Positions 11,779-47,830 of a DNA stretch of 64,000 bases are shown here, piece after piece. The position numbers were made by a program, and so were the translations under genes. The notes beneath the pieces were generated by a model. That model was not told the origin of the DNA and searched no databases. It was given only the letters and a program-made list of their open reading frames with translations. The stretch comes from Paenibacillus sp. FSL W8-0426 (GTDB taxonomy: Bacteria > Bacillota > Bacilli > Paenibacillales > Paenibacillaceae): assembly GCF_037969725.1 (NCBI RefSeq), contig NZ_CP150203.1:2992001-3056000 (forward strand). The letters are read 5' to 3'. Every line of letters begins with the position of its first letter. Position 1 is the stretch's first letter.

Positions 11779-11885
11779 CATGTTTTTGTTTGAAATTTCG
11801 ATTTCTAATGGGATCCTTATAAAATCCTTAGAATTGTTTTATAACATTCTTTTCAAGGACACATACGAAAAGGATGAAGACGAGA

Positions 11886-12593: not shown

Positions 12594-12595
12594 GC

Positions 12596-13336: not shown

Positions 13337-13337
13337 A

Positions 13338-14096
13338 ATGAGCATGTTCATTCGTTATATGCGTGCCGATGTGATCAAGCTGCGCAGACAATCGCTGCCA
13401 TGGATTCACCTGGCGATCCCGTTCATCGGCATCGTGCTGTTTCTTTCGTATTATGCATTCACACCGTATTCCGATGCCTCCAAAATCGATGGATACCTGC
13501 AGGCCGTTGCCATTGCACTGCCTGCAATCATCGGCATCGTATGTGCAATTGCCGCGGAACAGGAGTATAATGCAGGAGGCTTTCAACATTTGCTGACATC
13601 ACCGGTCAAGGTGATTCCTTTTCTTAGCAAGCTCAGCCTTCTCCTGGTGTTTGGTTTGGCAAGCATCCTAACGGCGGCCGTAGGATTCGGCGTTGGAAAT
13701 GTATTCATTTTGCAAAATGAAATGCAGGATATATCTTTTTACATACTGGCGGGACTGATCTTGTTCGGCAGCAGCATATTCCTTTACGTATTTCATTTTA
13801 TCGTTAGTTTGAGATGGGGAAGAGGTGCTTCCATGGGACTGGGCATCGCGGGGAGTCTGGTGTCTGCGCTGCTGTTGACCGGACTGGGGGACGCCAATTG
13901 GGTTTACGTTCCGTTTGCCTGGCCATCCCGATTGATCACCTTGTGGTCAAGGTTTGCAGGCGAGGCTGCAAGCTCCGTACCTGCGCATTCGATGTTGGGC
14001 ATGGGAATCGCCTGTCTGGCGGCGGGGACCCTCTTGATGATTGCAATATCAGTTGCATGGGTATGGCGTTGGGAAGGAAAGCATGCGCTTGAATAG
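13338..14096 (+). CDS. lanG: Lantibiotic-immunity ABC permease (LanG/MutG type)
   Basis: A 252-residue membrane protein with about six transmembrane helices, beginning MFIRYMRADVIKLRRQSLPW. It is similar in plan to LanE but diverged, as usual for LanE/LanG pairs. The motif AAEQEYNAGGFQHLLTSP is the characteristic cytoplasmic loop of MutG-type permeases. It starts 1 bp after the lanE stop and is followed 62 bp later by a response regulator gene, which argues for one operon. It acts in the membrane to remove lantibiotic (inferred from family). Confidence 0.82.
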   Translation: MSMFIRYMRADVIKLRRQSLPWIHLAIPFIGIVLFLSYYAFTPYSDASKIDGYLQAVAIALPAIIGIVCAIAAEQEYNAGGFQHLLTSPVKVIPFLSKLSLLLVFGLASILTAAVGFGVGNVFILQNEMQDISFYILAGLILFGSSIFLYVFHFIVSLRWGRGASMGLGIAGSLVSALLLTGLGDANWVYVPFAWPSRLITLWSRFAGEAASSVPAHSMLGMGIACLAAGTLLMIAISVAWVWRWEGKHALE

Positions 14097-14158
14097 GATC
14101 AGCGGGTTGGATTGCCCATGGATATCATGAAGTGAAAAAGAAGGAGGGTGGTCCGAAC

Positions 14159-14818
14159 ATGGCACGACTATTGGCCGTTGACGACGAACCTGCCGTGCTC
14201 GCGCTGCTATCGAACATTCTGCAAAAGGACGGTCATCTGGTGACGGCCGTTTCCGACCCGTCCACCGTGCAGGATCAACAGCTTGGAACCTTCGATTTGA
14301 TCATGCTTGATGTGATGATGCCCGGGATTGACGGTTTCCAATTATGCCGGCAAATTCGGGACAAGGTCGATTGTCCCATTCTGTTCCTTACCGCCAAATC
14401 GATGGAAGGGGATATCATGTCCGGCCTTGCCGAAGGAGCGGACGATTACATCGTCAAGCCGTTTGGCGCCGGAGAGCTGAGAGCAAGAATCCAGGCCCAT
14501 TTAAGGCGCGAAAATCGCGAAAAGCGTAACGTGCTGTGCATCGGCGACATGCATTTCAATTTGTCCGGAAAGGAAATACGGGTTCGGGGTCAGGACGTTC
14601 CTTTAACCAAAAGCGAATACGCCATCTGTGAATTTCTCGCGATGAAGCGGGGACAGGTGTTTTCCCGGGAACAAATCTATGAATCGGTGTTTGGGTATGA
14701 AGGAGAGAGCGATTCTTCCACGATCGTGGAGCACGTCAAAAACATTCGCGCCAAGCTGAACCGGGTTGGCGAAGCGCCGATCGAGACCGTGTGGGGGATC
14801 GGTTACCGATGGAAATGA
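14159..14818 (+). CDS. OmpR-family response regulator (SpaR/NisR-like)
   Basis: A 219-residue regulator. The receiver domain has DDEP near the N-terminus, the phospho-acceptor Asp in DLIMLDVMMPG and Lys in YIVKPF. A winged-helix output domain occupies residues ~125-219 and ends in TVWGIGYRWK. ATG at 14159 follows GAAGGAGGG by 11 bases. It lies directly downstream of lanFEG and overlaps the kinase gene by 10 bp, so it most likely activates lanFEG on lantibiotic detection. Confidence 0.9.
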   Translation: MARLLAVDDEPAVLALLSNILQKDGHLVTAVSDPSTVQDQQLGTFDLIMLDVMMPGIDGFQLCRQIRDKVDCPILFLTAKSMEGDIMSGLAEGADDYIVKPFGAGELRARIQAHLRRENREKRNVLCIGDMHFNLSGKEIRVRGQDVPLTKSEYAICEFLAMKRGQVFSREQIYESVFGYEGESDSSTIVEHVKNIRAKLNRVGEAPIETVWGIGYRWK

Positions 14819-16200
14819 CGACACGACCGAAGAATCGGAAACCGACCAGGCTGCGTTCCTTGTTTATGAAATACCTCATGTTTTTCTGCGCAGGGATCAT
14901 CGTGCTCGGATTGCTGTTGGGAGGCCTCTTCATTGCCATGCTGTCCTGGGGAGCCATTCTTCCTGCCAATTACGCGGAAAAGCAAGCGGCGGCTGCCGCC
15001 GCTTCATTCGAGCAGGAAGGAACCGTCCCTTCTTCTGATGACGCGTTGTTCCGATATGCTTTGTTGTCATCCGATGGGGAATGGGCAGCGGGAACGTTAT
15101 CCCCAAGGGATGCTTTACAAGCTTGGACCGAGCTTAAGGAACGGATGGTCAACACAAGCCTTACCCATGTTTACGTGAAAGCCGTTCATCAGGATCAGGT
15201 GATGCTGTTCCGTTACTCCGTCTCTGCGCAATTCGAGCCTTTATGGCTGCGAAACGTTATACCGAGCGCAGAGATTGCTTTCTTTGCTGCCTTTCTCGGC
15301 TTGCTGATCGGCGGAGTTCTGTGGCTTGCATCGGCTTTTGGGCGGACGTTGTCGCTCAAGCTGAGGGGGCTCAGGCAGGCGGCAGAGCATGTGCAGAACC
15401 AGGACTTGGACTTTGAGATTCGAATGAGCGGCGTCAGCGAGATCGATCAGATCCTGGACTCGATGCATCAGATGAAAGAAGCGCTTCGCAGCTCGCTTCA
15501 GCAGCAGTGGAAGTTGGAGCAGAGCCGCCGCGAGCAAATTTCCGCCTTGGCCCATGACGTCAAAACGCCGCTGACCATTGTACGGGGAAACGTCGAACTG
15601 TTGTCCGAAACCGGGCAAACGGCAGAGCAGCAGGAATATACCGCTTATATCACCGATAGCGTCCGCCAGATGGAGCAATACATTCGAACCTTGATCGATA
15701 TAGCGAATACCGAAACATCCATGTCTTTGAACAGGAGAGAGGTAGATGCGCATCAATTCGTCGAACGGGTAAAAGGACAGATCCACGCCTTGGTTGCAGT
15801 CAAAAAACAGCATGCGGTTTGGGCGGCTTCTTCGTTCCCTCCAAGGTTTTATGCCGATGAAGACTTGCTGGAGCGAGCGTTGATGAACGTGGTCCATAAC
15901 GCTTCAGACCATATGGCAGAACATCAACAAATGACGATTCGAATGGAGGGGGCGGGACAAGGCGTGCGATGGACGATCATCGACGAAGGCCCTGGTTTTT
16001 CGGCCGAGGCGCTCAAATATGCCACCGATCAATTCTATATGGGAGATGCCTCCAGAAGCTCCACCGGCCACTATGGAATGGGGCTTTACATCTCGCAGCA
16101 CATCATGCAAATGCACGGGGGAATGCTTCGTCTCGGCAATTCGGATGAAACCGGAGGGGCCCAAGTGACGCTGGAAATTCCCGTCGGTGCCAAACGATAA
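14809..16200 (+). CDS. Sensor histidine kinase (SpaK/NisK-like)
   Basis: A 463-residue membrane kinase with two transmembrane helices (~20-45 and ~155-180) around an extracellular sensor of ~110 residues and a HAMP-like linker. The H-box is SALAHDVKTPLT and the ATPase has N (NVVHNASDH), G1 (DEGPGF) and G2 (GMGLYI) boxes. Its plan and position next to lanFEG fit the kinases that sense lantibiotics. ATG 14809 has GGGGGAT upstream and overlaps the regulator gene; ATG 14815 is an alternative. A hairpin terminator follows the stop. Confidence 0.88.
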   Translation: MEMTTRPKNRKPTRLRSLFMKYLMFFCAGIIVLGLLLGGLFIAMLSWGAILPANYAEKQAAAAAASFEQEGTVPSSDDALFRYALLSSDGEWAAGTLSPRDALQAWTELKERMVNTSLTHVYVKAVHQDQVMLFRYSVSAQFEPLWLRNVIPSAEIAFFAAFLGLLIGGVLWLASAFGRTLSLKLRGLRQAAEHVQNQDLDFEIRMSGVSEIDQILDSMHQMKEALRSSLQQQWKLEQSRREQISALAHDVKTPLTIVRGNVELLSETGQTAEQQEYTAYITDSVRQMEQYIRTLIDIANTETSMSLNRREVDAHQFVERVKGQIHALVAVKKQHAVWAASSFPPRFYADEDLLERALMNVVHNASDHMAEHQQMTIRMEGAGQGVRWTIIDEGPGFSAEALKYATDQFYMGDASRSSTGHYGMGLYISQHIMQMHGGMLRLGNSDETGGAQVTLEIPVGAKR

Positions 16201-16203
16201 CTG

Positions 16204-16252
16204 AATAGCGGCAGCTCTTGGTTTGGCCCTGAACCATGGCTGCCGCTATTTG
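16204..16252 (+). terminator. Probable terminator after the kinase gene
   Basis: Perfect 12-bp stem aatagcggcagc (16204-16215) / gctgccgctatt (16239-16250) with a long loop and a short T tract. Confidence 0.6.
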
Positions 16253-16386
16253 GTATGCATGGATTGGATTTATGACGATTTTCGCGTCAGAGAAATGAAG
16301 GATTTTTTAGGGTAGACAATCCGTTTAAATTCATATATGTTAATACTTATTAAAAGTATAATATGAAGTGAAGGCGGGTAAGCGGA

Positions 16387-16986
16387 ATGAAGACAGAGAA
16401 ACAAAAAATGCTGGACGGAGAACTTTATAAGGCCTGGGACCCGGAATTGACGCGTGATCGGACCCATGCCAGAAGACTGACCCGAATGTACAATCAGACC
16501 ACCGAAGCGGATGAGGAGAAGCGTGTACAGATTCTGAAAGAACTGTTTGGCTCGACTGGCGAGAACCTGAGCATGGAACCGAATGTGCGGGTGGATTATG
16601 GATACAATGTGCACGTCGGCGATCATTTTTACGCGAATTTCGATTGCACTATTCTGGATGTATGTGAAGTACGGATCGGGCATCACTGCTTGTTCGGACC
16701 GGGCGTTCACGTGTACACTGCGACTCATCCCGTTGACCCGTACGAAAGAAGCCAAGGACCGGAATACGGCAAACCGGTAACGATCGGTAACCATGTCTGG
16801 GTCGGCGGGCGCTCTGTTATCAATCCGGGCGTGACCATTGGCAACAATGTCGTCATCGCTTCAGGATCGGTGGTCACCAAGGATGTACCCGACAACGTGA
16901 TCGTCGGTGGAAATCCTGCAAGAGTGATTCGAAAGATCGAGGAAACCTCGATGAATCGGAATGACAACGAAATGGATAAAGGCTAA
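16387..16986 (+). CDS. Sugar O-acetyltransferase (maltose/galactoside type)
   Basis: A 199-residue left-handed beta-helix acetyltransferase. It has the maltose-acetyltransferase N-terminal helix ([15 protein letters not shown]), the catalytic His region YTATHPVDP and hexapeptide repeats such as IGNHVWVGG and [20 protein letters not shown]. It uses acetyl-CoA to acetylate sugars in the cytosol, perhaps detoxifying non-metabolised ones. It stands alone with its own AT-rich upstream region. The C-terminal ~15 polar residues extend beyond the usual end of the family. Confidence 0.88.
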
Positions 16987-17014
16987 GCTGGACGTTAACC
17001 CGAATTCATTTTGA

Positions 17015-17233
17015 TGGGGCACGATCCCATACAAGACACTTTATGATGTACAAGCTTTTGCGTGTGCCGTCCTTCGCTGCGGACATTCAGTTTATGGAAA
17101 CGGCGAACCGATGCCGTCTTATCCCGAGGTCGTGCTGACGCAAACATTTCAGCAGGATTTCGAGACGGGACTCCGTTTGCTGGCAATGGACGCATTACAC
17201 CCTTCAATGCAAGATAGTATACACATTAAATAA
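17015..17233 (+). pseudogene. Possible gene remnant, 72-codon open stretch without a start
   Basis: An open frame runs from just after a TGA at 17012 to TAA at 17231-17233 and reads like protein (for example SYPEVVLTQTFQQDFETGL), but it has no start codon with a ribosome binding site at its beginning. It may be the tail of a lost gene. I do not recognise the family, and a chance open frame is possible. Confidence 0.25.
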
Positions 17234-17264
17234 ACGAGCGCCTCCGCCAGGAGACGCTCGTTTT
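17232..17264 (-). terminator. Bidirectional terminator downstream of dapA
   Basis: Stem aaacgagcg / cgctcgttt with an inner cctcc/ggag pairing, A run on the left and TTTT on the right. It serves the dapA paralogue on the minus strand. Confidence 0.75.
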
Positions 17265-17282
17265 GATCGTTAAAAGAACAAC

Positions 17283-18170
17283 TTATGCATAAGAAACGAT
17301 GGTATTCATGAGGTTTTGCTTGAGCTGATCCGATGCGGGCATGAGCGGCAGCCGCAATTGTCCGGTCGCGATGATCTCTTGCTGGGACAGCCACCATTTG
17401 ATGGCTGCGGGAGCAGGTTCCGAGAAGACCTGGCGAATCAACGACTCCACCTCTTTGAAGCTGTCTCGGGCGCCTGTAACGTCGCCGCTTGCAAAGCGCT
17501 GGTAGATGTCCACGTATTTCGGCAAGTTCAGGTGCGCGGATGCAAGCATGCCGCCGGCAGCCCCTTGGCAGAGCATTGCGTGGAAATAGGAATCCTCCCC
17601 GCACAGAATCGGTTTCGTATCATGCTTCGTCAACTGGAGGAGCAGGTCCAGTCCGCCGGAGCTGTCTTTCAGGCCGATTACGCCATCCAGGTCAAGCACG
17701 GTGCGAATCGTGTCGAGCGTCATCCGACTGCCGGTACGTGCCGGAATTTCGTATACCAGAACAGGCAAGCCGGTGCCGGATGCGGCGCGAAAATGCTCCA
17801 CAATGCCTTCTTGCGTAGGACGGTTGTAATATGGAGTGACCACCATGGCCGCGTCTGCACCGATTTTGGCAGCCATTTCCGTGCGTCGTACCGTAGAGTA
17901 CGTATCATTGGTTCCCGTGCCGACGACGATTGGAATGGTTTTGTTCAGCTCTTTGAGCACATCCTGCGTCGTTTGTACCAGTTGCGCAACTTCGTCCCAG
18001 GATACGGTCGGCGATTCGCCCGTCGTGCCGTTTACGACAAGGCCTTGAATGTCGTGCTCTGCCAAATAAGTGACGTAATTCCGGTAAGACTCGATGTCCA
18101 GCTTATGATCGCTCGTAAAAGGTGTAATCACCGGTATGAAAATCCCATGAATATGTTTTTCGTTCATCAT
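17283..18170 (-). CDS. dapA: DapA-family 4-hydroxy-tetrahydrodipicolinate synthase
   Basis: A 295-residue class I aldolase. The substrate-binding GTTGES is at residues ~48-53, the Tyr and Arg pair in YEIPARTG, and the Schiff-base Lys in GLKDSSGG. These match DapA, which condenses pyruvate with aspartate semialdehyde on the way to lysine and diaminopimelate. No other lysine gene is nearby, and it is divergent from a LysR regulator, so it may be a paralogue acting on another aldehyde, as related pyruvate aldolases do. Tandem ATGs at 18170 and 18167 follow GGGAAGGGAT. Confidence 0.8.
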   Translation of the reverse strand: MMNEKHIHGIFIPVITPFTSDHKLDIESYRNYVTYLAEHDIQGLVVNGTTGESPTVSWDEVAQLVQTTQDVLKELNKTIPIVVGTGTNDTYSTVRRTEMAAKIGADAAMVVTPYYNRPTQEGIVEHFRAASGTGLPVLVYEIPARTGSRMTLDTIRTVLDLDGVIGLKDSSGGLDLLLQLTKHDTKPILCGEDSYFHAMLCQGAAGGMLASAHLNLPKYVDIYQRFASGDVTGARDSFKEVESLIRQVFSEPAPAAIKWWLSQQEIIATGQLRLPLMPASDQLKQNLMNTIVSYA

Positions 18171-18282
18171 GATCAGTTATCCCTTCCCGTTGGATTGATT
18201 CTAATGTAACATAGGAGTGGATATCAGAGTTATCTATAATAAACGATGATTCTAATCAATTTTTTCGATGAGGTGACCCGGA

Positions 18283-19155
18283 TTGGATTTCATCTACCTT
18301 CAAACGTTTCGCGAGGTGGCCATACGCGAAAGCTTTACAAGAGCCGCAGAAGTGCTCGGCTACGCGCAATCCAGCGTGACGACCCAAATTCAGAAGCTCG
18401 AAAAGGCTTATGACGTCAAGCTGTTCGAACGATACAGCAACAATAAAATTCGCTTGACCTCCGCAGGGGAGGAACTGTTCAAGCTCGCAGGGCAAATGCT
18501 GGAATTATTTGAGCAGTCCAAAGAGAAAATGGCCAAGCAAGGCGGAGGTTCCATGACGATCGGCACGATGGATTCGATTGCTTCCTATTACCTGCCAACC
18601 TATATGCAGGCAACCCGAAAAGAGTATCCCGAACTGAACATTCGTTTGCATACGGATTCGGAAGAATTGATCTTGCATCAGGTGAAGGAAGGGGAAGCCG
18701 ACGTTGGGCTGATTCTTGCGGACGATTCCAGCGATCCTGCTTTGCAGTGGATAAGGATCAGGGAGGAACCCCTAGTGCTCATCGTTCACCCCGGCCATCC
18801 TCTGCTCAGCAAGGAAGAAATTGTTCTGGACGACCTGAACGATGCGGAATGGATCATGCCCGAGCATACGTGCAACTACCGGCAGCTGCTGGAACGCGTG
18901 CTTCGCGCGAACGGCATTCCGTATCGGGTAGGGTTGGAACTGGGCAATCCCGAGGCAATCAAGCGCAGCATCAAAACCGGGGAAGGCATATCCATCTTGC
19001 CGCAGATGGCAGCCATGGAGGAGATCGAACGCGGGGAACTGATGACACTGCCTTTCGATCATCCCGAGCTGAAGCTGGAGATTCAGCTGGTTCTGCATCC
19101 CAAGAAGTGGGTGTCCAACGCCTTGCGGCATTTTATGGATATACTGAAAGTATAA
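18283..19155 (+). CDS. LysR-family transcriptional regulator
   Basis: A 290-residue LysR protein. Residues ~1-60 hold the winged helix (SFTRAAEVLGYAQSSVTTQIQKLE), and residues ~90-290 are the two-lobed effector domain. The TTG start at 18283 is supported by GAGGTGA about 7 bases upstream and by the family-typical MDFIYLQTF beginning. It is divergent from the dapA paralogue with ~110 bp between. A T-N11-A type element, atatcagagttat, lies in that gap. The regulator probably controls dapA and itself. Confidence 0.86.
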   Translation: MDFIYLQTFREVAIRESFTRAAEVLGYAQSSVTTQIQKLEKAYDVKLFERYSNNKIRLTSAGEELFKLAGQMLELFEQSKEKMAKQGGGSMTIGTMDSIASYYLPTYMQATRKEYPELNIRLHTDSEELILHQVKEGEADVGLILADDSSDPALQWIRIREEPLVLIVHPGHPLLSKEEIVLDDLNDAEWIMPEHTCNYRQLLERVLRANGIPYRVGLELGNPEAIKRSIKTGEGISILPQMAAMEEIERGELMTLPFDHPELKLEIQLVLHPKKWVSNALRHFMDILKV

Positions 19156-19171
19156 CTAGTGGCACATGTGT

Positions 19172-19216
19172 AACAGCCGTTTTCCGATTGATGATCGGGG
19201 AGCGGTTGTTTTTTTT
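19172..19216 (+). terminator. Terminator after the LysR gene
   Basis: 17-bp stem with G-T pairs, aacagccgttttccgat / atcggggagcggttgtt, followed by eight T. Confidence 0.85.
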
Positions 19217-19259
19217 CATAAAAGTGATCCAACAACTTTATCGTATATTTACTATACGA

Positions 19260-19273
19260 GTAACCTATGTTAC
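19260..19273 (+). promoter_or_regulatory. Putative PadR operator
   Basis: Dyad gtaac-ctat-gttac about 50 bp upstream of the PadR start, followed directly by an overlapping tgttacagttaaca near-dyad. PadR proteins usually repress their own promoter through such short palindromes. Confidence 0.4.
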
Positions 19274-19321
19274 AGTTAACACAAGTTTCAAATAACATAA
19301 GAATGGGGAGAAGAGGATACG

Positions 19322-20242
19322 ATGTCCATCCAATATGCCATACTCGGGCTGCTGAGCTGGAAACCGGCTTCGGGCTATGAGCTGAAAAAAGTCATCGAGC
19401 AGTCCCCGACCATGCATTGGTCCGGCAACAACAATCAAATTTACCGCTCCCTTGTCCAATTGCTGGACAAAGGCTACGTGACCAATGAAGTTCAGCACCA
19501 GGAGAGCTCCCCATCCAAAAAAGTGTACAGCATCACGGATGCAGGATGGTCCAGATTGAAAGAATGGGTCCTTACCGAACCGGAGCTTCCCGAGTTCAAA
19601 AACACGTTCCTGATTCAATTGGCATGGTCTGAAGCGTTGAGTGACGAGGAATTGCTTGAGTTGTTGTCGCAGTATGAGAGCAGAATCCAGGCAGAGCTTC
19701 TGTACCAACAGGAAAAACTGAACCGGGGCGTCCCGGCACCTCATCGGAGCGAACGCGAAACGTTCATATGGAACAAAATCTCCGAAAATCTGTTGTCGTC
19801 CTATCACCATGAATTGGAATGGCTCCAAAGCGTCCGCGAAGAACTTCACCAAACCAAAACAAGCAAGGAGATGACCCGAATGAATCATACCATTGTTGAA
19901 CAAGACGGACGAAAGTATATCGAAGTATTATCCGCCGAAACGCCCCTTGGCACGGAACAGGATGCGCTTGACCTGATCGGGTTGTGCATGGAAAAAGAGA
20001 TTAGCTTGCTTATGCTGCATGGCGAGGCTCTTTCCGACGATTTCTTCAAGCTGAGAACAGGGGTGGCCGGCAAAATGATTCAAAAATGGATCAACTACCG
20101 CGTCAAAACGGCTGCTGTCATCCCGGCGGAATTGGCCCAGCAGGGACGTTTTAAAGAAATGGCCGCTGAATCCAGCGGCAGCAGCGCATTTCGCATATTT
20201 GAACATAAACACGACGCGCAGCAGTGGCTGTTGAAAGATTAA
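19322..20242 (+). CDS. PadR regulator fused to a DUF4180 domain
   Basis: A 306-residue fusion. Residues ~1-180 are a PadR winged helix and C-terminal dimer helices (ILGLLSWKPASGYELKK, WSGNNNQIYRSLVQLLDKGYV). Residues ~190-306 form a DUF4180 domain beginning MNHTIVEQDGRKYIEV. DUF4180 proteins usually stand alone and have no known role; here the joined domain could be the sensor of the repressor. An internal ATG at the junction (about 19880) could also yield a free DUF4180 protein. GGGGAGAAGAGGA precedes the start. No target gene adjoins it. Confidence 0.82.
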   Translation: MSIQYAILGLLSWKPASGYELKKVIEQSPTMHWSGNNNQIYRSLVQLLDKGYVTNEVQHQESSPSKKVYSITDAGWSRLKEWVLTEPELPEFKNTFLIQLAWSEALSDEELLELLSQYESRIQAELLYQQEKLNRGVPAPHRSERETFIWNKISENLLSSYHHELEWLQSVREELHQTKTSKEMTRMNHTIVEQDGRKYIEVLSAETPLGTEQDALDLIGLCMEKEISLLMLHGEALSDDFFKLRTGVAGKMIQKWINYRVKTAAVIPAELAQQGRFKEMAAESSGSSAFRIFEHKHDAQQWLLKD

Positions 20243-38372: not shown

Positions 38373-38428
38373 TTGACGGGCTGCCGCCGCTATGCTATAT
38401 TACAACCAGTTAATAGTAATAATTACGA
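38373..38428 (+). promoter_or_regulatory. cnt operon promoter with Zur-type box
   Basis: -35 TTGACG (38373-38378), 17-bp spacer, -10 TATATT (38396-38401). A 7-1-7 inverted repeat TAGTAAT-A-ATTACGA (38414-38428) follows, differing at one of 14 core positions from the Bacillus Zur box TCGTAAT-N-ATTACGA. It sits just downstream of the expected start site, where zinc-loaded Zur would block transcription. Confidence 0.8.
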
Positions 38429-38454
38429 TTAAGCGCAGGGAGAATCGAGGTCAT

Positions 38455-39339
38455 ATGGTGAACAAAATAGTCGATTTTGTCAAATTTAATCCAACGCAAA
38501 ATATGACGATTCTTGTAACAACGAGTTATGAAGACGATCTTGGACGACTGCAAACGGCCAAAGAACTTATGGCATATGGCCATCTTCATGCCGAACAGGT
38601 CGGATTCATCGAGAAACCTCGCATCATTTCGGCTAGCGCGGCTCTTCGAATGGCCGGTGGCGAGTTTTGCGGAAATGCCTGTATGGCCTTGGCGGCATGG
38701 CTGTGGTCCGGTAACAACGATGACCGGCCGAATGAAGGTGAACTGATGCTGGAAGTTTCGGGAACCGATCGCTTGGTGGCTTGCCGGGTCAGAAGGGAAG
38801 GCGAGAATTACCGCTGCCGGGTTGAAATGCCTGTCCCTGTCGGCTTTGAAGCCTTCCACGTTTCGTATGGCGGCAGGATATGGCACATGGTCAAGCTCAA
38901 CTATAGCGATGCCATCCATATCATTATGGAGATCCAATCTTTCAATGAGGCAATCCGGTCCCAAGCGGAAGAGTTGGCTCGTTTGCTGGGCAAAACGACG
39001 GGTCAATCGCTTGTCGGGATCATGCTGTATCAAGCCGACATTAGGCAAATGGCCCCGTTGATCTATGTCAGAACGCTCGACAGCCTGGTCTGGGAACGGG
39101 GATGCGGCTCCGGGACGGCTTCCATAGGAGCGTACCTGGCATGGAAGCTTCGGAGTCATGTCAGCGTGCAAGTCAAGCAGCCTGGCGGCATCATTGAAGC
39201 GGAGGCTTCGTACACGGACGGTGAGGTCACATCCGTCCGCATCGAAGGCAGCGTAGGTATCGTTGCACAAGGGAAAGCATATGTTCATGTCGGCGAAACA
39301 GCAGAAAAGGAGGAGGTCGGTATCGCATGGCAACGATGA
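38455..39339 (+). CDS. cntK: Histidine racemase of opine metallophore synthesis (CntK)
   Basis: A 294-residue diaminopimelate-epimerase-fold racemase. The two catalytic cysteines are in GEFCGNAC (Cys72) and ERGCGSGTAS (Cys217). Identity as CntK rather than DapF rests on the adjoining cntL and cntM genes. It makes D-histidine from L-histidine as first precursor. ATG 38455 follows GAGG by only 4 bases; GTG 38458 is an alternative. First gene of the operon, overlapping cntL by 13 bp. Confidence 0.9.
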   Translation: MVNKIVDFVKFNPTQNMTILVTTSYEDDLGRLQTAKELMAYGHLHAEQVGFIEKPRIISASAALRMAGGEFCGNACMALAAWLWSGNNDDRPNEGELMLEVSGTDRLVACRVRREGENYRCRVEMPVPVGFEAFHVSYGGRIWHMVKLNYSDAIHIIMEIQSFNEAIRSQAEELARLLGKTTGQSLVGIMLYQADIRQMAPLIYVRTLDSLVWERGCGSGTASIGAYLAWKLRSHVSVQVKQPGGIIEAEASYTDGEVTSVRIEGSVGIVAQGKAYVHVGETAEKEEVGIAWQR

Positions 39340-40124
39340 TCGATTTTCAGCGCGAGCTGCATTCCTTCATGGAATCATTCACCGATTTGGCCCGCGAATT
39401 TGATGGAAGCGCAGGGCATGGAGTACGGTTGGAGCACATCATCAATGAATATTCGGGCTTTATAACCAATGAAAGAAATGAAGCTTTGTGGACCAGGCTG
39501 CTGTATGAGAAGCCGGCCACGTCAAGAAGACTGGGGGCAGAGCTCAGGCAAATTTCCGCACGCTGCGTGAGCATGATGGAAAAGTATCGGGCTTGGAAGC
39601 TGGAGCGTGGGGAGATGCGGATCGACGACTACTTCCAAAACATCGAAGCTTGCATCGAAAAGGAGTTCGGCAGTTTTCGCCTGACGTCCGAATCTAGAGT
39701 GCTCATGGTCGGTTCGGGCGCATTTCCTATGACCCCGTTGATGATTGCGAGACGAACCGGAGCCGAGGTCGTCGGCATCGATATCGATGAAGATGCGCTT
39801 GCGCTTGGCCAAAATGTCATCCATACCCTTGGACCGGAGCTGAACGTCTCCTTCTCGTCATCGCCCTTGGATGACCTGGCCGGTATGGACCGGATTACGC
39901 ATATTATTTTCAGTTCCACCGTGCCCGAGAAATACGAAATGCTCCATCGGCTCCACCCGCTGACTTCTTCAGAAATCGTGGTTGCAATGCGCTATGGAGA
40001 CGGGCTGAAGTCCCTGTTTAATTATCCGATGCAGGAAGTGGATGAACGGGCGTGGAGGCTCGAAGGCTGCATTTTGCAACCCCGCGATGTGTTCGATGTC
40101 GCCTTGTATCGAAAGGTTCCGTAA
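39327..40124 (+). CDS. cntL: Nicotianamine-synthase-like aminobutanoyltransferase (CntL)
   Basis: A 265-residue protein with a Rossmann-type SAM site, VLMVGSGAFPMTPLMIAR, followed by GIDIDEDALALG, as in nicotianamine synthases, and a helical N-terminal half. CntL transfers the aminobutanoate part of S-adenosylmethionine to D-histidine, giving the xNA intermediate. AAAGGAGGT precedes the ATG, which lies within the end of cntK. Its stop is 47 bp before cntM. Confidence 0.9.
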   Translation: MATMIDFQRELHSFMESFTDLAREFDGSAGHGVRLEHIINEYSGFITNERNEALWTRLLYEKPATSRRLGAELRQISARCVSMMEKYRAWKLERGEMRIDDYFQNIEACIEKEFGSFRLTSESRVLMVGSGAFPMTPLMIARRTGAEVVGIDIDEDALALGQNVIHTLGPELNVSFSSSPLDDLAGMDRITHIIFSSTVPEKYEMLHRLHPLTSSEIVVAMRYGDGLKSLFNYPMQEVDERAWRLEGCILQPRDVFDVALYRKVP

Positions 40125-40171
40125 CGTTAAGGAAGAAAAAATAGACCAAGAAAGGATGGATGAGGTTTCGA

Positions 40172-41497
40172 ATGAATCCATTTGAACGTGTGTTGATCGC
40201 TGGAACGGGTCCTGCCGCCATTCAGCTGGCTGTAACCATGAACCAGCAAGGCAGCTGCGCCGTTGCACTGGCAGGCAGGGAGTCTGCAGGCTCGTCGATC
40301 CTGTTCGCGGCGTTGGCGGAGAGTCGTGGGACCGTCCGAGCGGAAACACAGAACGAATCGCATCGCCGAATGCAAGGAGAGTGCAGGCTTGACCGGGTGT
40401 ATCCGCGCTATGCGGACATTGATGAACCGTGGGATGTGCTCGTTCTAGCCGTTACGACAGATGCCTACTGCGAAGTACTTGAGCAGATGGATTCTTCTGT
40501 TCTGCGCCAGCTTCGGTGCGTCATTCTGGTGTCGCCCACATTCGGTTCGGGCAGTTTGGTCAGTCATTATATGCGTAACAGGGGCCATGATCAAGTGGAG
40601 ATCATCAGTTTTTCCACATACTTCGGGGATACGCGATGGAAGGAAGGCACCCCTTCTTTCCAGGTTCTGACGGCAGGTATTAAGAAAAAGGTATACATCG
40701 GCTCAACTGCCCCGGCATCGCCTAACGTGGCACGCTTGACCGGGCTGTTTTCGCGGCTCGGCATTCAATTGCAGAATGCAGGAACGCCGCTTGCGGCCGA
40801 GACGCGCAACATTTCGCTGTACGTTCATCCGCCGCTGTTTATGAACGATGTCGCTTTGGAAGCCGTATTTCACGCATCCGCTCCAAGGCGATACGTCTAC
40901 AAGCTTTTTCCGGAAGGACCGATCACCATGCGGTTGATTGAAGAAATGCTGGACTATTGGAAAGAAATCATGGACATCACGGAGCGTTTATCGCTTCCAA
41001 AATTGAATCTGCTCGCGTGCATGAACGAGGACAGCTATCCTGTCCGTCCGGAGAGCTTGGCGCGGGAAGATATCGAACGTTTTACGGAGCTGGAGCCGAT
41101 CCATCAGCAATATCTACTGTACGTCCGTTATGCCTCATTGCTGATCGATCCGTTTTCCGATCCCGATCCCGAGGGGAAATACTTTGATTTCTCGGCCGTG
41201 CCGATTCGCCAGACTTACGTAAACAAGGAAGGGAAGCTGGATATTCCCCGAATGCCGAAGGAGGATTACTATCGCATCAAAATCATTCGCGGCATGGCCC
41301 GACGCCTCGGCGCAGCCAGTCCGGTGATGGACCGTTTGATCGCAAGGTACGAATCTGCCTTGGAACGCGCTGCGGCCATTCATGCCCCTTTTCCGTTATC
41401 CCGAGCCTTTGCTGCGTGCAGCTTCGATGATCACGTCGACATGATCTACAGCGATCCGATGATCAGGAAGAACGATGGTTCCGCGCAATCCATATAG
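40172..41497 (+). CDS. cntM: Opine metallophore dehydrogenase (CntM), predicted staphylopine type
   Basis: A 441-residue opine dehydrogenase with N-terminal GTGPAAIQLA. It has strongly conserved CntM segments: VILVSPTFGS, NISLYVHPPLFMNDVALEA, YKLFPEGPITM, YVRYASLLIDPFS and YFDFSAVP. It reductively joins the CntL product to a 2-oxoacid. Arg36 and Asp153 align with positions 33 and 150 of the S. aureus enzyme. Arg there favours NADPH and Asp favours pyruvate. ATG 40172 has GAGG 6 bases upstream; ATG 40160 is an in-frame alternative. Confidence 0.92.
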   Translation: MNPFERVLIAGTGPAAIQLAVTMNQQGSCAVALAGRESAGSSILFAALAESRGTVRAETQNESHRRMQGECRLDRVYPRYADIDEPWDVLVLAVTTDAYCEVLEQMDSSVLRQLRCVILVSPTFGSGSLVSHYMRNRGHDQVEIISFSTYFGDTRWKEGTPSFQVLTAGIKKKVYIGSTAPASPNVARLTGLFSRLGIQLQNAGTPLAAETRNISLYVHPPLFMNDVALEAVFHASAPRRYVYKLFPEGPITMRLIEEMLDYWKEIMDITERLSLPKLNLLACMNEDSYPVRPESLAREDIERFTELEPIHQQYLLYVRYASLLIDPFSDPDPEGKYFDFSAVPIRQTYVNKEGKLDIPRMPKEDYYRIKIIRGMARRLGAASPVMDRLIARYESALERAAAIHAPFPLSRAFAACSFDDHVDMIYSDPMIRKNDGSAQSI

Positions 41498-41551
41498 CTG
41501 CCGGTCACGGCAGCCATGACCTATCATGAAATCGAATCAGGAGGAATCAAG

Positions 41552-43192
41552 GTGTTATCAATCAGGCATATCCCCAAATTAGCAGCATTGCTGCTCATCG
41601 CATCGCTATTTCTTGCAGGGTGCGGTACAACTTCAGGACAAGGAGAGACGTTCAACCAAACGGCAAGTTCGCCGGAGGATGCCGCACGGCCATTCGAATT
41701 GGTCTACGCGACTGCCAAGGATATCCAGGACATGAACCCTCACCTGTACACCGGGTCGATGTCGGCGCAGGGCATGGTGTATGAATCTCTCGTGGAGAAC
41801 ACCTCCGAGGGCATCAAGCCGCTGCTGGCGGAGTCCTGGGACATCACGGAAGACGGCTTGACCTATACGTTCCATTTGAGAAAAGGGGTTCAATTCCATG
41901 ACGGCACGCCGTTCACCGCGGACGCCGCAAAGCAAAATATGGATGCGGTGCAGGCCAACGCCGAGAAGCACAGCTGGATCAAATTATCCACCAAAATTCA
42001 AACCATCGAAGCGGTGGACGAACACACGCTCAAGATTAAATTGAGCGAACCGTATTACCCGGCATTGGCCGAATTGTCCATGACGCGTCCATACGTGTTT
42101 TTGTCGCCCAACGATTTCAAGGACGGCGAGACGAAAGATGGCGTAAACGGATTTCATGGAACAGGCCCTTACCGGATCACAGAGCATAAACCGGATGAAT
42201 ATGCCGTGTTCGAAGCCAACGAAAACTATTGGGGCAACGCGCCGCAAATCCCAAAAATTACGGCAAAGGTGCTTCCGGCGGGAGAGACCACGTTCCTTGC
42301 CCTTCAAAAGGGCGAAGTCAATTTTGTTTTTACCGACGATCGGGGAGCGGATAGTTTGGACGTGCAGGCGATGGATCAGCTGATCCAGTCTGGAACGTAC
42401 CAGATTATTCGCAGCGAGCCGATGAACACGCGCATGATCGTGGCCAACACGGGAAAATCCGGCAGCCCTGCCGCGGAAACGGCCGTGCGTCAAGCCATCT
42501 GGCTGTCCATCGACCGCGAAGCGATCAGTTCGGGGCTGACCGAAGGGACCGAGCTGCCTGCCAATACGCTGTTCTCCCCCAACGTCAACGATGCGGACGT
42601 GGAGTTGAAGGCAAGAAGCTTTGATCAAGCGAAAGCGGCGGAATTGCTGGACCAAGCGGGATGGAAAGCCGATGCGAACGGCACGATCCGCACGAAGCAA
42701 GGTGCGCCGCTGACGATGAATTTGTATTATGACAGCAATGCGCCGGCCCAGAAAGCGATGTCCGAGTTCATCCAGCATAGTCTTAAAAGCGTGGGTATGG
42801 AACTGAAACTTGTGGGCGAGGAGTCATCGTCCATTGCAAGCCGCAGGGCAAGCGGCGATTATGATTTGTTGTTCAACCAGACTTGGGGTCTCGCGTATGA
42901 TCCGCAGAGCACGATCGCGGCATTCACGTCGGCGTCTGCGTACCGACATGCCACCAGCGGCATCGCGGAAGCGCAACAGCTATATCGGAAAATCGACGAT
43001 GTGATGGTGTCCACGGAGGAAGGGAAGCGGAAATCGCTATACGCCGACATTCTCGGCATCGTGCACGACGAGGCCGTATTCATTCCGCTGACCTATGGCC
43101 GCGTAAGCATCGTTGCCCCAAGCGAGCTTCAAGGCATTGCTTTCAAACAGTCCCAATACGAGCTGCCTTTTGAGCAGATGTTCGTACGATAG
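41552..43192 (+). CDS. cntA: Metallophore-binding lipoprotein (CntA)
   Basis: A 546-residue family 5 solute-binding protein (oligopeptide/nickel type) with a signal and lipobox LAGC (Cys24). The family landmarks are LTYTFHLRKGVQFHDGTPFTA and YRITEHKPDEYAVFEANENYW. It captures the metal-opine complex outside the membrane for CntBCDF. The GTG start at 41552 follows AGGAGGAA; a longer frame from 41516 would push the signal peptide inward and is rejected. Confidence 0.88.
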   Translation: MLSIRHIPKLAALLLIASLFLAGCGTTSGQGETFNQTASSPEDAARPFELVYATAKDIQDMNPHLYTGSMSAQGMVYESLVENTSEGIKPLLAESWDITEDGLTYTFHLRKGVQFHDGTPFTADAAKQNMDAVQANAEKHSWIKLSTKIQTIEAVDEHTLKIKLSEPYYPALAELSMTRPYVFLSPNDFKDGETKDGVNGFHGTGPYRITEHKPDEYAVFEANENYWGNAPQIPKITAKVLPAGETTFLALQKGEVNFVFTDDRGADSLDVQAMDQLIQSGTYQIIRSEPMNTRMIVANTGKSGSPAAETAVRQAIWLSIDREAISSGLTEGTELPANTLFSPNVNDADVELKARSFDQAKAAELLDQAGWKADANGTIRTKQGAPLTMNLYYDSNAPAQKAMSEFIQHSLKSVGMELKLVGEESSSIASRRASGDYDLLFNQTWGLAYDPQSTIAAFTSASAYRHATSGIAEAQQLYRKIDDVMVSTEEGKRKSLYADILGIVHDEAVFIPLTYGRVSIVAPSELQGIAFKQSQYELPFEQMFVR

Positions 43193-43214
43193 GCCGCAGA
43201 CGATGGGGAGTTAT

Positions 43215-44138
43215 ATGATTAAACGAATGGCGCTCACCGTGCCGCTGTTGTTTGTCATCTCTTTGCTTGCGTTTCTGCTTGTGAATCTTTCGCCGATGGA
43301 TCCGGCGGAAATGGTGCTGCGGGCGCAAGAAGTTCCGGAGATTACGGAACCGCTGCTGGAACAAACGCGCGAACGTTTGGGGATGGATCAGCCGTTGTTG
43401 GTCAGGTACGCGCAGTGGCTGGGTGACGGCTTGTGGCTAAACTTCGGAGAATCCTATGTGTCCGGGCAGCCGGTCTGGTCCATGCTGGGACCAGCAATGT
43501 GGAATACGGTCAAACTGACGTTAATATCGTGCCTGCTCATCATCCTGCTGTCGGTGTTCTTTGGTGTCGTTTGCGCGCTGAATGAAGGACGAACGCTGGA
43601 CCTTTCCGTGAGGGGAGTGACGTTTCTGCTGACGGCAATGCCTTCGTACTGGCTTGCTTCGCTATGCATCTGGTATTTCTCCGTGAAGCTGGATTTGCTG
43701 CCGACGAGCGGCATGGATTCGTATCTTAGCTACATACTGCCCGTGTTTGTCATTGCCTCGGGGTACGTCGGCTTGTATTTTCGCAACGTCCGCAGCGCCA
43801 TGCTTGCCAACCTGCATGAAGGTTACGTTCGGTATGGCCGTGCTTGCGGATTGTCCGAAAGCACGATTCTGAAACATGTTCTTCGCAATTCGCTGCAGGT
43901 GGCCGTATCGATCTTCTGCATGTCCGTTCCCATCATCCTTGGCGGTACCGTGGTCATCGAAAACGTGTTTGCCTGGCCGGGAGCGGGCAGACTGGCCGTC
44001 AAAGCCATATTGGGCAGGGACTTGCCCGTGATTCAGGCCTACGTGCTCGTGTTGGCAGTCACTTTTGTCGCGTTTAACGCACTGTCCGATCTGATCCATG
44101 CCGCTCTCAATCCGCGGTGGCGGAAGGAGGCATCATAA
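43215..44138 (+). CDS. cntB: Metallophore ABC importer permease (CntB)
   Basis: A 307-residue DppB/NikB-type permease with six helices, the start MIKRMALTVPLLFVISLLAF and the loop ERLGMDQPLLVRYAQWLG. The ATPase-contact loop YVRYGRACGLSESTILKHVLRNS is near the C-terminus. It forms the membrane channel with CntC. The ATG follows GGGGAG and lies 22 bp after cntA. Confidence 0.88.
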   Translation: MIKRMALTVPLLFVISLLAFLLVNLSPMDPAEMVLRAQEVPEITEPLLEQTRERLGMDQPLLVRYAQWLGDGLWLNFGESYVSGQPVWSMLGPAMWNTVKLTLISCLLIILLSVFFGVVCALNEGRTLDLSVRGVTFLLTAMPSYWLASLCIWYFSVKLDLLPTSGMDSYLSYILPVFVIASGYVGLYFRNVRSAMLANLHEGYVRYGRACGLSESTILKHVLRNSLQVAVSIFCMSVPIILGGTVVIENVFAWPGAGRLAVKAILGRDLPVIQAYVLVLAVTFVAFNALSDLIHAALNPRWRKEAS

Positions 44139-44140
44139 AC

Positions 44141-45025
44141 ATGAACATCGTTCGCCGTTTGAGCCAAGACAAGCTTGCCTGCATCTGTTTGTCATGGTTG
44201 GGCCTGGTCATGCTGGCGGGACTGCTCGCTCCGTGGGTATCGCCGCATGCGCCGGATGCCGTCGACATGAGCCTGCGTTACGCGCCGCCTTCCTGGGCAT
44301 ATCCGCTCGGCAACGATCATCTGGGCCGATGCGTGCTGTCGCGGCTTATCTATGGGATTCGGCCGAGTTTGCTCGGGGTGCTGGCCACGCTGGGCATATC
44401 GCTTGGCATCGGAACGTTCGCGGGTCTGGCCGCCGGTTATTTCAAGGGAAGGATCGACAGCATCGTGATGCGGGCATGCGATGTCATGCTTTCCTTTCCG
44501 GGTTATGTCACGACGCTGGCGGTGGTGGGGCTGCTCGGGCCTGGCCTGGAAAACATTTTGCTCGCCTTTGTCATTTCAAAATGGGCTTGGTTCGCACGGG
44601 TAATTCGGACATCCGTCATGCAGCATTCGGAAGCGGGATACGTAAAGTTCGCCAAGGCTGCGGGGATCGGGCATTTCCGCATTCTACGCAAACATATGCT
44701 GCCGATGGCGCTGGCCGACATCGCCGTGGTCGCCAGCAGTTCGATGTGCTCCATGATTTTGCAAGTGTCGGGCCTGTCGTTTCTCGGGCTCGGCGTACAG
44801 GCGCCGACGGCGGAATGGGGGATGATGCTGGGTGAAGCAAGGGATGTTATGTTTTCGAAGCCCGAATTGATGGTTGCTCCGGGACTTGCGATCATTCTCG
44901 TCGTCTGTGCGTTCAATTTTGCGGCAGATGGATTACAGGCGGCCTTGGATCCCAAATTGGCTTCCTCCCGGCAAAGGAAAGAAGTAAAAAAGGAGCGTGG
45001 AACGTATGAATATGCTGGAAGTTGA
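44141..45025 (+). CDS. cntC: Metallophore ABC importer permease (CntC)
   Basis: A 294-residue DppC/NikC-type permease. It has APPSWAYPLGNDHLGRCVLSRLI after the first helix and the contact loop YVKFAKAAGIGHFRILRKHMLP. It pairs with CntB. ATG 44141 follows GGAGGC and begins two bases after the cntB stop. The basic C-terminal tail (RQRKEVKKERG) overlaps the cntD start by 20 bp. Confidence 0.88.
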   Translation: MNIVRRLSQDKLACICLSWLGLVMLAGLLAPWVSPHAPDAVDMSLRYAPPSWAYPLGNDHLGRCVLSRLIYGIRPSLLGVLATLGISLGIGTFAGLAAGYFKGRIDSIVMRACDVMLSFPGYVTTLAVVGLLGPGLENILLAFVISKWAWFARVIRTSVMQHSEAGYVKFAKAAGIGHFRILRKHMLPMALADIAVVASSSMCSMILQVSGLSFLGLGVQAPTAEWGMMLGEARDVMFSKPELMVAPGLAIILVVCAFNFAADGLQAALDPKLASSRQRKEVKKERGTYEYAGS

Positions 45026-45848
45026 TCGTTTGCGCGTATGGGACGCGAAGAGCGGACACGTCATCGTGCACTACAGTTCTTTCCGGCTGGCCGCCGGAGA
45101 ATGCCTGGCCATCGTGGGCGAGAGCGGCAGCGGCAAGTCGATGACCTGCCGCTCGATCCTGAGGCTCCATGATCCGTCCATTCGGCAATCCGGCGAGATC
45201 CGTTTTCAAGGCGAATGCTTGTCTGACCTGCCGGAGAGGGACATGAGAGAGCGAAGGGGGAAACGCATCAGCCTGGTCATGCAGAATGGCATGAATGCCT
45301 TCGATCCGTCCTGCAAAGTTCGCGTTCATTTCAGGGAAACGCTGGGGCGGCACATGGGCTGGACGCGCAGGCAAGTCGATGAACGGGCGGAAATCGCCCT
45401 GGCGCAGGTCCAACTGCGGCCTGCCAAGGACGTTCTGAATAAATACCCTCATGAGCTTTCGGGAGGCATGCTGCAGCGTCTGATGATTGCGCTATCCCTG
45501 CTGCTTGAACCGGAGTTGATCATCGCGGACGAACCGACAACCGCGCTGGATGCCCTTTCCCAATACGAGGTGCTGGTGCAGCTCCGACAATTGAAGGCGC
45601 GCATCGGCTGCGCAATGCTGCTGATCTCGCATGATCTGGGTGTGGTGCGCACGATGGCTGACCGGATTTTAGTGATGAGACAAGGAAGAATCGTGGAGGA
45701 AGGGGATGCCGGGAATGTGTTGTCTCATCCGCGCCATCCTTATACGCAGCATCTGATTCATACCCGGCGCCAGCTCACGGAACCGTTCAAAACGATGTTG
45801 GAGGAGGGCGGATATGCTGAGCATGAACGGCGTCGAAAAGTATTATAG
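45006..45848 (+). CDS. cntD: Metallophore ABC importer ATPase (CntD)
   Basis: A 280-residue DppD/NikD-type ATPase: Walker A GESGSGKS (~39), signature LSGGMLQR, Walker B LIIADEPTTALD and His switch LISHDLG. It drives import with CntF. ATG 45006 has AAGGAG about 11 bases upstream. It overlaps cntC by 20 bp and cntF by 35 bp, indicating tight coupling. Confidence 0.88.
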   Translation: MNMLEVDRLRVWDAKSGHVIVHYSSFRLAAGECLAIVGESGSGKSMTCRSILRLHDPSIRQSGEIRFQGECLSDLPERDMRERRGKRISLVMQNGMNAFDPSCKVRVHFRETLGRHMGWTRRQVDERAEIALAQVQLRPAKDVLNKYPHELSGGMLQRLMIALSLLLEPELIIADEPTTALDALSQYEVLVQLRQLKARIGCAMLLISHDLGVVRTMADRILVMRQGRIVEEGDAGNVLSHPRHPYTQHLIHTRRQLTEPFKTMLEEGGYAEHERRRKVL

Positions 45849-46569
45849 TGCTGGGGGAATGTTATTCAGAAAGCGTCAGCACATCTTAAGGGACATCCAT
45901 CTATCCGTTGCACCAGGCGAGTGCTTGGGAATAATCGGGGAGAGCGGCAGCGGCAAATCCACGATCGGACGCCTGCTCTTGGGCATCGAACGCCCCGATT
46001 CGGGCAAGGTGCTGCTGGAGGGACTCCCCGTCTCCCGCAGGTCCGTGCGTGCGGGCAGGGTCAGCGCCGTTTTTCAGGACTACACGTCGTCGATCCATCC
46101 GTTTTATACGGTGGAACAAGCGTTATGCGAACCGGTCGCCGCCCTTCCACGGTCAAGCGCATATCGCCAGGAGCTGCCGGAACGTCTGGACTTCTGGCTT
46201 GAACAGGTGGGGTTAAGTCCGGCATACCGCAAAAAATATGCGCATGAACTGTCCGGCGGCGAGGCCCAGCGCGTCTGTATCGCCCGGGCGGTATTGACCC
46301 GGCCGCAATTCGTTGTCATGGATGAAGCGATCAGTTCGCTGGACGTATCCGTTCAGGCACAGGTGCTCGAGCTGTTGAAACAACTGAAGGAAACGTATGG
46401 CATGGGTTATGTTTTCATCACACATGACATTCAGGCGGCGGCCTATCTGTGCGAGCGGCTTGTGATACTCAAGTCGGGACGGATTGAAGAAACGGTAGAC
46501 GTGTCGAAGCTGGGACAGGTTCGGTCCGATTACGCCCGGCGGCTGTTGGCATCCTCGATCGTATTATGA
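45814..46569 (+). CDS. cntF: Metallophore ABC importer ATPase (CntF)
   Basis: A 251-residue DppF/NikE-type ATPase: Walker A GESGSGKST (~44), signature LSGGEAQR, Walker B FVVMDEAISSLD and switch FITHD. The Walker B has Ala where most ABC proteins have Pro (DEA for DEP); the catalytic Glu is intact. GGAGGGCGG precedes the ATG. It works as a heterodimer with CntD. Confidence 0.87.
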   Translation: MLSMNGVEKYYSAGGMLFRKRQHILRDIHLSVAPGECLGIIGESGSGKSTIGRLLLGIERPDSGKVLLEGLPVSRRSVRAGRVSAVFQDYTSSIHPFYTVEQALCEPVAALPRSSAYRQELPERLDFWLEQVGLSPAYRKKYAHELSGGEAQRVCIARAVLTRPQFVVMDEAISSLDVSVQAQVLELLKQLKETYGMGYVFITHDIQAAAYLCERLVILKSGRIEETVDVSKLGQVRSDYARRLLASSIVL

Positions 46570-46654
46570 GCGGGGCCGCAGGGGATTTCCTTCGAGTTTT
46601 GCGCATAGTCGCAACGGCGCAATCACAGTCAACCATTTTGAAGGAGGAACATGG

Positions 46655-47830
46655 GTGAATGGAGCTTTAGCTTGGCCTTTCATGCGCCTGTATCTGCTCA
46701 CGCTGCTCTATTTCAGTGCCAATGCGGTGCTGAACGTCATCATTCCGCTCCAAGGCGCCGCATGGGACGCAAGCAGCGCGACGGTTGGCCTGATCATGGG
46801 CGCGTACATGCTGACCACGATGTTTTTTCGCCCGTGGGCAGGCCGCATCATTCAGAGGCACGGGGCCGTCAAAATACTTCGTATGATTCTGCTGCTCAAC
46901 GGAGCAGCTTTGATTTTGTATACATTTACGGGCATTGGCGGCTATATAGCTGCCCGTTCGTTACAGGGCGTGTGCACGGCCTTTTTTTCCATGGCCCTGC
47001 AAATCGGCATCATCGAAGCCTTGCCTGACAACGATCGCGCGCAAGGCATCTCGATGTATTCCCTGTTCAGTTACATTCCCGGCATCATGGTTCCCTTTCT
47101 GGCTATTGCCTTGTGGCAAAGCGGAGGCATGCCGTCTTTTTCGGTGCTTCTGATCGTGATTGCCGTGGCGACGGCGATATTCGGATATACGATTCGCTCG
47201 GACCAACAGGAGCACCCTGACAAGAATAGCAAAGCGTTTGGCAGAGAAACGGAACAACGGAGCATGTGGGGCATGTTCGCTCAGCTGGTGAAGCAGCCTG
47301 CACTGCGAACTTGCGGCATGCTGATGTTGTCGGCATCCGTCGTGTTCGGGGCGGTCACGGCTTTTATGCCGTTATACGCGCAAGAGGTGGACGGGGCCAA
47401 TGCGGGTGGGTACCTCGGCATACAGGCTGCGGTCGTCGTTGCCGCCCGGTTGTTCTGGGGGAAAAAGCTGCCTTCCGGGGCACGGTGGAGTGCCCCCTTG
47501 ATCATGGGCATGATGACGCTAATCTCCCTTTCGGCATTGAGCATTAGTTACGCTGCCGGCGGCGGTGCTGCCTTCTTATATTTGGGGGCAGTGCCGATGG
47601 GCATCGCGCAAGCGATTCTTTACCCTGCACTCACCACGCATTTATCGTTCGTGCTCCCTGCAGAAGATCGGAATGTGCTGCTTGGCTTATTCATCGCCAC
47701 GGCCGATTTGGGCATTTCGCTTGGCGGCATGGTGATGGGAATGGTGGCGGATGCCGCCAATTATGCCCAAATGTTCATCGTATGTGCCGTGCTCGGTCTG
47801 GTCATGCTGCCTGTTGCCTATCGCCGCTGA
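46655..47830 (+). CDS. cntE: Metallophore exporter of the MFS family (CntE)
   Basis: A 391-residue, ~12-helix major facilitator beginning WPFMRLYLLTLLYFSANAVLN, with the loop RPWAGRIIQRHGAV after helix 2. Its position as last gene of a cntKLMABCDFE series identifies it as the exporter that releases the new metallophore. The GTG start follows AAGGAGGAAC; an ATG 4 bases earlier is out of frame. An 85-bp gap separates it from cntF, with no clear promoter. Confidence 0.88.
   Translation: MNGALAWPFMRLYLLTLLYFSANAVLNVIIPLQGAAWDASSATVGLIMGAYMLTTMFFRPWAGRIIQRHGAVKILRMILLLNGAALILYTFTGIGGYIAARSLQGVCTAFFSMALQIGIIEALPDNDRAQGISMYSLFSYIPGIMVPFLAIALWQSGGMPSFSVLLIVIAVATAIFGYTIRSDQQEHPDKNSKAFGRETEQRSMWGMFAQLVKQPALRTCGMLMLSASVVFGAVTAFMPLYAQEVDGANAGGYLGIQAAVVVAARLFWGKKLPSGARWSAPLIMGMMTLISLSALSISYAAGGGAAFLYLGAVPMGIAQAILYPALTTHLSFVLPAEDRNVLLGLFIATADLGISLGGMVMGMVADAANYAQMFIVCAVLGLVMLPVAYRR

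Follow-up and report, generated by a model that had tools for sequence, protein, structure and literature searches.

Does a run of nine genes in Paenibacillus sp. FSL W8-0426 constitute a complete opine metallophore operon of the Staphylococcus aureus type, which metal governs its expression, and which molecule should it produce? The DNA analysed, hereafter the window, is a stretch of 64,000 nucleotides (nt) of contig NZ_CP150203.1 (positions 2,992,001 to 3,056,000 of the forward strand), and the coordinates below refer to it unless another locus or contig is named. The original prediction, made from the letters of the window, had read this run as a full cnt operon in staphylococcal gene order behind a box for the zinc regulator Zur, and in both respects it held. 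Nine open frames, cntK-L-M-A-B-C-D-F-E, follow each other on the plus strand between 38455 and 47830, every frame is intact, and together they are a complete staphylopine-type metallophore operon. The features of the operon and of its upstream region are these.

38373..38401, plus strand: promoter of the sigma-A type, TTGACG-17 nt-TATATT, whose −10 element is preceded by TG.
38414..38428, plus strand: predicted Zur box TAGTAAT-A-ATTACGA, separated by 12 nt from the −10 element and by 26 nt from the ATG of cntK.
38455..39339, plus strand: cntK, cofactor-independent histidine racemase of 294 amino acids (aa); NCBIfam model and solved-structure match.
39327..40124, plus strand: cntL, nicotianamine-synthase-like D-histidine 2-aminobutanoyltransferase of 265 aa; NCBIfam model and structure match.
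40160..41497, plus strand: cntM, staphylopine dehydrogenase, 445 aa if counted from the first ATG (translation possibly begins four codons further on); NCBIfam, PF10100 and structure.
41516..43192, plus strand: cntA, metallophore-metal binding lipoprotein; NCBIfam and structure match.
43203..44138, plus strand: cntB, permease with inferred start (ATG at 43203 or 43212).
44117..45025, plus strand: cntC, permease; NCBIfam model.
44997..45848, plus strand: cntD, ATPase; NCBIfam model.
45814..46569, plus strand: cntF, the second ATPase; closest to the NikE model, with a score under the cut-off.
46655..47830, plus strand: cntE, exporter of the major facilitator superfamily (MFS), staphylopine family; NCBIfam model.

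Family models matched all along the run. CntA (NF047575, 910 bits with a cut-off of 800), CntB (Opp1B model, 466 and 380), CntC (NF047573, 447 and 440), CntD (NF047578, 398 and 380) and CntE (NF047574, 574 and 235) passed their NCBIfam cut-offs, and CntM passed that of PF10100 (599 bits, 25 required). CntK (NF033599, 207 bits of 300), CntL (NF033601, 275 of 350) and CntM with its NCBIfam model (NF033600, 508 of 675) fell short, and for CntK this shortfall is common to the whole order, since the cut-off was reached in 0 of its 392 genomes. The score of CntF was below the cut-off with both the NikE model TIGR02769 (225 bits of 333) and the CntF model (120 of 385), and the gene is therefore named by its position; the CntD protein lies above the cut-off of the CntF model as well (394 versus 385). 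Among solved structures the best chain for CntK was 6l4l (E 3e-35), a PDB entry that bears the label diaminopimelate epimerase and that we take to be S. aureus CntK, and the named histidine racemase 9cr6 came next in kind (E 4e-27). Both cysteines of CntK, located in FCGNA and GCGSGTAS, are kept and align with those of 6l4l. The best structure matches of the other three proteins were 7c7m and its relatives for CntL (E 3e-58), the staphylopine dehydrogenase 6h31 for CntM (E 6e-112) and, for CntA, the chain 5yh8 (E 2e-181), labelled nickel-binding protein and presumably S. aureus CntA.

The genes are tightly packed. Gaps at the junctions are −13 nt (K-L), 35 (L-M), 18 (M-A), 10 (A-B), −22 (B-C), −29 (C-D), −35 (D-F) and 85 (F-E), so that four of the eight junctions overlap and the largest gap is that before cntE; all nine genes would be transcribed as one message. 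The racemase gene stands upstream of cntL, the latter directly upstream of cntM, and importer and exporter occupy the next six frames after cntM (A, B, C, D, F and E). All components of an opine-like zincophore cluster of the racemase/MFS/Opp type were thus found: a CntM recognised by PF10100, cntL, a racemase with its cysteines, and genes for import and export. The order is identical to cntKLMABCDFE of S. aureus, as given in the available part of PMC7594338.

The product can be predicted from CntM. According to the accessible text of PMC7438024, a racemase in the cluster supplies D-histidine, while the residue at position 150 of CntM sets the keto acid, aspartate meaning pyruvate and alanine meaning alpha-ketoglutarate. 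Asp157 of the window CntM, within YFGDTRW, aligns with Asp150 of S. aureus and is of the pyruvate type. Because CntM has this aspartate and in view of the published one-residue rule, the predicted product is staphylopine (D-histidine, aminobutyrate and pyruvate) rather than bacillopaline, for which the keto acid is alpha-ketoglutarate; this identity of the molecule is read from the enzyme. Aspartate occupies the equivalent position in 79 of the 80 nearest named loci (the best 80 of 150 matches), and alanine in one (L108, P. methanolicus).

Bacillopaline itself (D-histidine, aminobutyrate and alpha-ketoglutarate) is a rival candidate, as both the genus and automatic cluster naming suggest it, and it was the only Paenibacillus system that the original prediction could name. 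As of 2020 it was, in the available text of PMC7438024, the sole Paenibacillus opine metallophore reconstituted, and clusters in the genus are named bacillopaline in the accessible parts of genome papers (PMC11237614, PMC12926252). The bacillopaline system of Paenibacillus mucilaginosus shares with the window the racemase, the MFS exporter and the Opp-type importer, but bacillopaline and pseudopaline enzymes carry alanine (PMC7438024, same portion) where the window CntM carries aspartate, which predicts pyruvate rather than alpha-ketoglutarate. The name is therefore probably wrong for this molecule, and we regard bacillopaline as an unlikely product.

Clusters with alanine at this position were registered in some relatives. 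At locus L046 of genome G038 (2438-19390) two opine clusters lie side by side, the first a nine-gene racemase type with aspartate at CntM 150 and the second an LMABCDF run having no CntK match and alanine at this position; judging by these residues, the pair suggests that a single genome encodes two different metallophores. L072 (G011:C2) and L070 (G046) likewise have clusters in which CntK finds no match, the importer is of the Opp type and CntM 150 is alanine; G011 has, besides L072, a complete cluster of the racemase type on a different contig.

The next point is the control of the operon. The consensus of Zur sites is TCGTAATNATTACGA, and the box TAGTAATAATTACGA at 38414-38428 has one mismatch to it. 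Five sites of the window show up to three mismatches to the consensus, as compared to 2.4 in shuffles, and this box is the only one of them with fewer than three. When the 300 base pairs (bp) upstream of cntK were shuffled base by base 300 times, no shuffle matched the box score of the real sequence. In 23 related loci (22 of the same genus and one of another family, the window excluded) the best box upstream of cntK had at most one mismatch in 14 cases, two in 6, three in 2 and six in 1; in the 80 named loci there were at most two mismatches in 72, three in 6 and five in 2, the two sets overlapping and their rows being related, so that these counts are not independent. In 21 of the 23 related loci the box is immediately preceded by a promoter-like pair with a score of at least 10 of 12. 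Since the promoter scan found only 7 sites, with 9.0 expected from shuffles, it is on this conservation that the cntK promoter rests.

Sister sites in the genome point in the same direction. In 6.9 Mb there are 43 places with at most two mismatches to the box and 17 for the pattern read backwards; nine distinct places have none or one. Seven of these nine precede six units, namely znuCBA (two boxes), zigA-1, zigA-2, rpmG, a nik-type importer and cntK, so that six of the eight top boxes other than that of cntK stand before zinc or metal units. The best promoter-like pair places the −10 element 12 nt before the box at cntK, zigA-1 and zigA-2 alike. A box situated at the promoter, common to zinc genes of the genome and conserved in relatives is what is expected of a Zur regulon site, and the operon is very probably Zur-controlled and induced by zinc shortage, with the predicted box as the likely place of Zur binding.

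As to the other members of this set, znuCBA (L045:3301-5881) has two tandem Zur boxes and a His-rich ZnuA, while at L074 (G000:C1:3465000-3471000) a zigA gene and a gene for ribosomal protein L33 each have their own box. The L33 protein encoded by rpmG keeps one CxxC pair and is missing the second. The two ZigA-type GTPases score 532 and 539 bits (cut-off 600), and a divergent permease gene lies on the other side of the box before zigA-1. Judged by their boxes, the znuCBA, zigA and L33 genes may form a compact zinc-starvation regulon. The genome encodes five Fur-family proteins, two of which score above the Fur cut-off and two of which are nearest to PerR, below its cut-off; the fifth, L078, scores far below every model, and we take it as the likely Zur from its resemblance to Zur of B. 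subtilis, so that L078 can be named a candidate.

The 7-1-7 boxes of Fur, Zur and PerR are alike, and the box could instead belong to Fur or PerR, or iron could act on the operon in addition to zinc. The latter is the situation in S. aureus, whose cnt operon has, in the accessible part of PMC7594338, Fur and Zur boxes and a second promoter before cntA and is, in that of PMC5666155, repressed by both regulators and responsive to deletion of either gene. Among relatives of the window many show a best Fur-type match with three mismatches, overlapping the Zur box, and a separate one with two mismatches was observed in the cnt region of L068 (G017). For cntK of the window, the upstream region offers no Fur-type match better than one with four mismatches, which overlaps the Zur box; no Fur-type site with three or fewer was found near the operon in the window scan, and the majority of the sister sites stand at zinc genes. 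Control by iron or peroxide regulators is, consequently, quite improbable in our estimation. A separate promoter before cntA was considered as well and rejected: with 18 nt from cntM to cntA the gap is too short for it, and the nearby promoter-like site at 41436 scores 9 of 12 in a scan that, as already noted, yielded fewer sites than shuffles.

Based on these data one can assume with good confidence that the nine genes form one operon, repressed by zinc, for a zincophore of the staphylopine type. At high zinc, Zn-loaded Zur would occupy the box that follows the −10 element and block transcription, and a fall in zinc would allow the nine-gene message to be made. CntK would then convert L-histidine to D-histidine, CntL would add the aminobutyrate group of S-adenosylmethionine, and CntM would join this intermediate to pyruvate by reductive condensation, giving staphylopine; CntE would export the product and CntABCDF would re-import its metal complex.

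Several observations weigh against this assumption. CntK, CntL, CntM and CntF score below their NCBIfam cut-offs, as stated above. The keto-acid rule is partial, as the residue swap in S. aureus CntM merely equalised preference (PMC7438024, available text). Two of the nine top boxes have no metal gene: one lies inside a short 56-aa frame, and the other, a one-mismatch box at G000:C1:4271324 (L036, L073), lies between the gene of an AAA ATPase, which resembles the anti-phage ATPase IteA (257 bits, cut-off 510), and an hpaB-like monooxygenase gene. The spacing of 12 nt is found at this ATPase site too, while the distance is 7 nt at rpmG and 5 nt at the nik-type operon, and the elements overlap at znuCBA; in the related cnt loci it varies from 5 to 19 nt and is mostly 15. 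At L058 (G026), which has a complete KLMABCDFE run, no Zur-like box is present in the 300 bp upstream of cntK, and these 300 bp also lack the cnt-type promoter, unlike those of its congeneric neighbours. Finally, the E. coli-type Zur model gives L078 the lowest score of the five Fur-family proteins (27.5 bits as compared to 40.7–55.4, cut-off 167), and its best solved relative is PerR.

The window CntM is peculiar in its divergence. It is 98% identical to CntM of Paenibacillus sp. JJ-223 (L092, NZ_CAKMMP010000003.1), where the gene order is the same and an identical box lies 26 nt before cntK, and at most 58% identical to the other 79 of the best 80 named loci. The 20 loci of the amylolyticus/pabuli group have a mutual CntM identity of at least 61.5% (median 74.5%), and in the CntM tree of 86 rows the window and L092 fall outside this 20-row group, on a common branch of 0.97 changes per site; the deep nodes of this tree are weakly supported (84/21, 80/67), its bootstrap had not settled and it carries a long-branch warning. 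Relatives of the ArsR protein at the left edge of the operon (68–78% identity) occur in 15 other genomes of the genus; in the 8 of them inspected over 20 kb around ArsR the MFS-ArsR pair was present in all 8, and none of the regions gave a match to any of cntK, L, M, A and E. The long branch confined to this pair and the eight congener regions without cnt genes might indicate that this lineage acquired the operon and that it has decayed or fallen silent, but with nine open frames, key residues, promoter and box all kept, and with order, box and CntM sequence shared with JJ-223, we find this hardly credible. Transfer of the operon from outside the genus is plausible, and rapid divergence would look identical; the GC content (55% in the operon, 51% in the window) is not decisive on transfer.

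Beside the operon, the left edge holds a 216-aa lipoprotein-like frame without Pfam match and the ArsR-type regulator with its MFS protein, and the right side a 422-aa frame without Pfam match (next after cntE), a dehydrogenase and an HxlR regulator. Extra modifying enzymes, known from some published clusters, were looked for, and no transferase is found among these six neighbours. A second importer operon of nik/cnt type lies about 103 kb downstream, outside the window (L045:11737-16766; G000:C1:3142736-3147765), preceded by a Zur-like box of its own, TCGTTATTATTACGA at G000:C1:3142704. The binding protein of this importer shares 45% identity with CntA and scores above the NikA cut-off and below that of CntA; the other four genes were read by eye, and no synthesis or exporter gene was seen beside them. 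Uptake of metallophores made by others is a possible role. A bolder combination, in which one Paenibacillus lineage has acquired a foreign, fast-diverged staphylopine operon under zinc-only control (one Zur-controlled transcript, no Fur) that works beside this nik-type importer, the latter possibly stealing opine metallophores of other bacteria, is offered tentatively, as a picture that may well prove wrong.

How special, then, is such an operon? The original prediction held full clusters to be uncommon outside staphylococci and a few others, and this does not agree with their distribution. CntK matches (E <= 0.001) were found in 99 of 392 genomes of the order, the own genome included, and in none of 14 control genomes; CntM was found in 27 of the 59 genomes searched and in 23 of 36 within the genus, the own genome being counted in both. 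Apart from the window, 22 members of the genus have CntM; KLMABCDFE forms a single run in 21 of them, and in L068 cntKLM and cntABCDFE are divergent, on opposite strands. The same order was registered in 77 of the 80 best named loci, the exceptions being L115, L169 and L170. In 17 of the 22 same-genus loci L047-L068 the gene after cntE encodes another CntE-like MFS protein, with about 40% identity. The survey PMC7438024, in its available text, mapped such clusters to Bacillaceae, Paenibacillaceae and actinobacteria, and the accessible parts of genome papers (PMC11237614, PMC12926252) already report them in Paenibacillus.

Thus, the operon is a typical representative of a cluster type that has already been described and is widespread. 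With S. aureus cntKLMABCDFE it shares the nine functions, their order, the aspartate at CntM 150, the Opp-type importer, the MFS exporter and, as predicted here, Zur control; it differs in CntK, CntL and CntM scores below the NCBI cut-offs, in that no Fur box was found near the operon, and in a cntM-cntA gap too short for a promoter. In the CntM network published by Morey and Kehl-Fie in 2020 (PMC7438024, accessible part), Cluster 1 has the same gene content and predominantly Asp150, and by these features no essential difference from it was seen.

Full cnt operons are, therefore, not a staphylococcal rarity. The racemase-type clusters of Paenibacillus, sometimes named bacillopaline, mostly have the pyruvate-type residue (79 of 80) and should make staphylopine. 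A Zur-type cnt promoter appears to be conserved outside pathogens, and it would be useful for testing zincophore control by zinc only.

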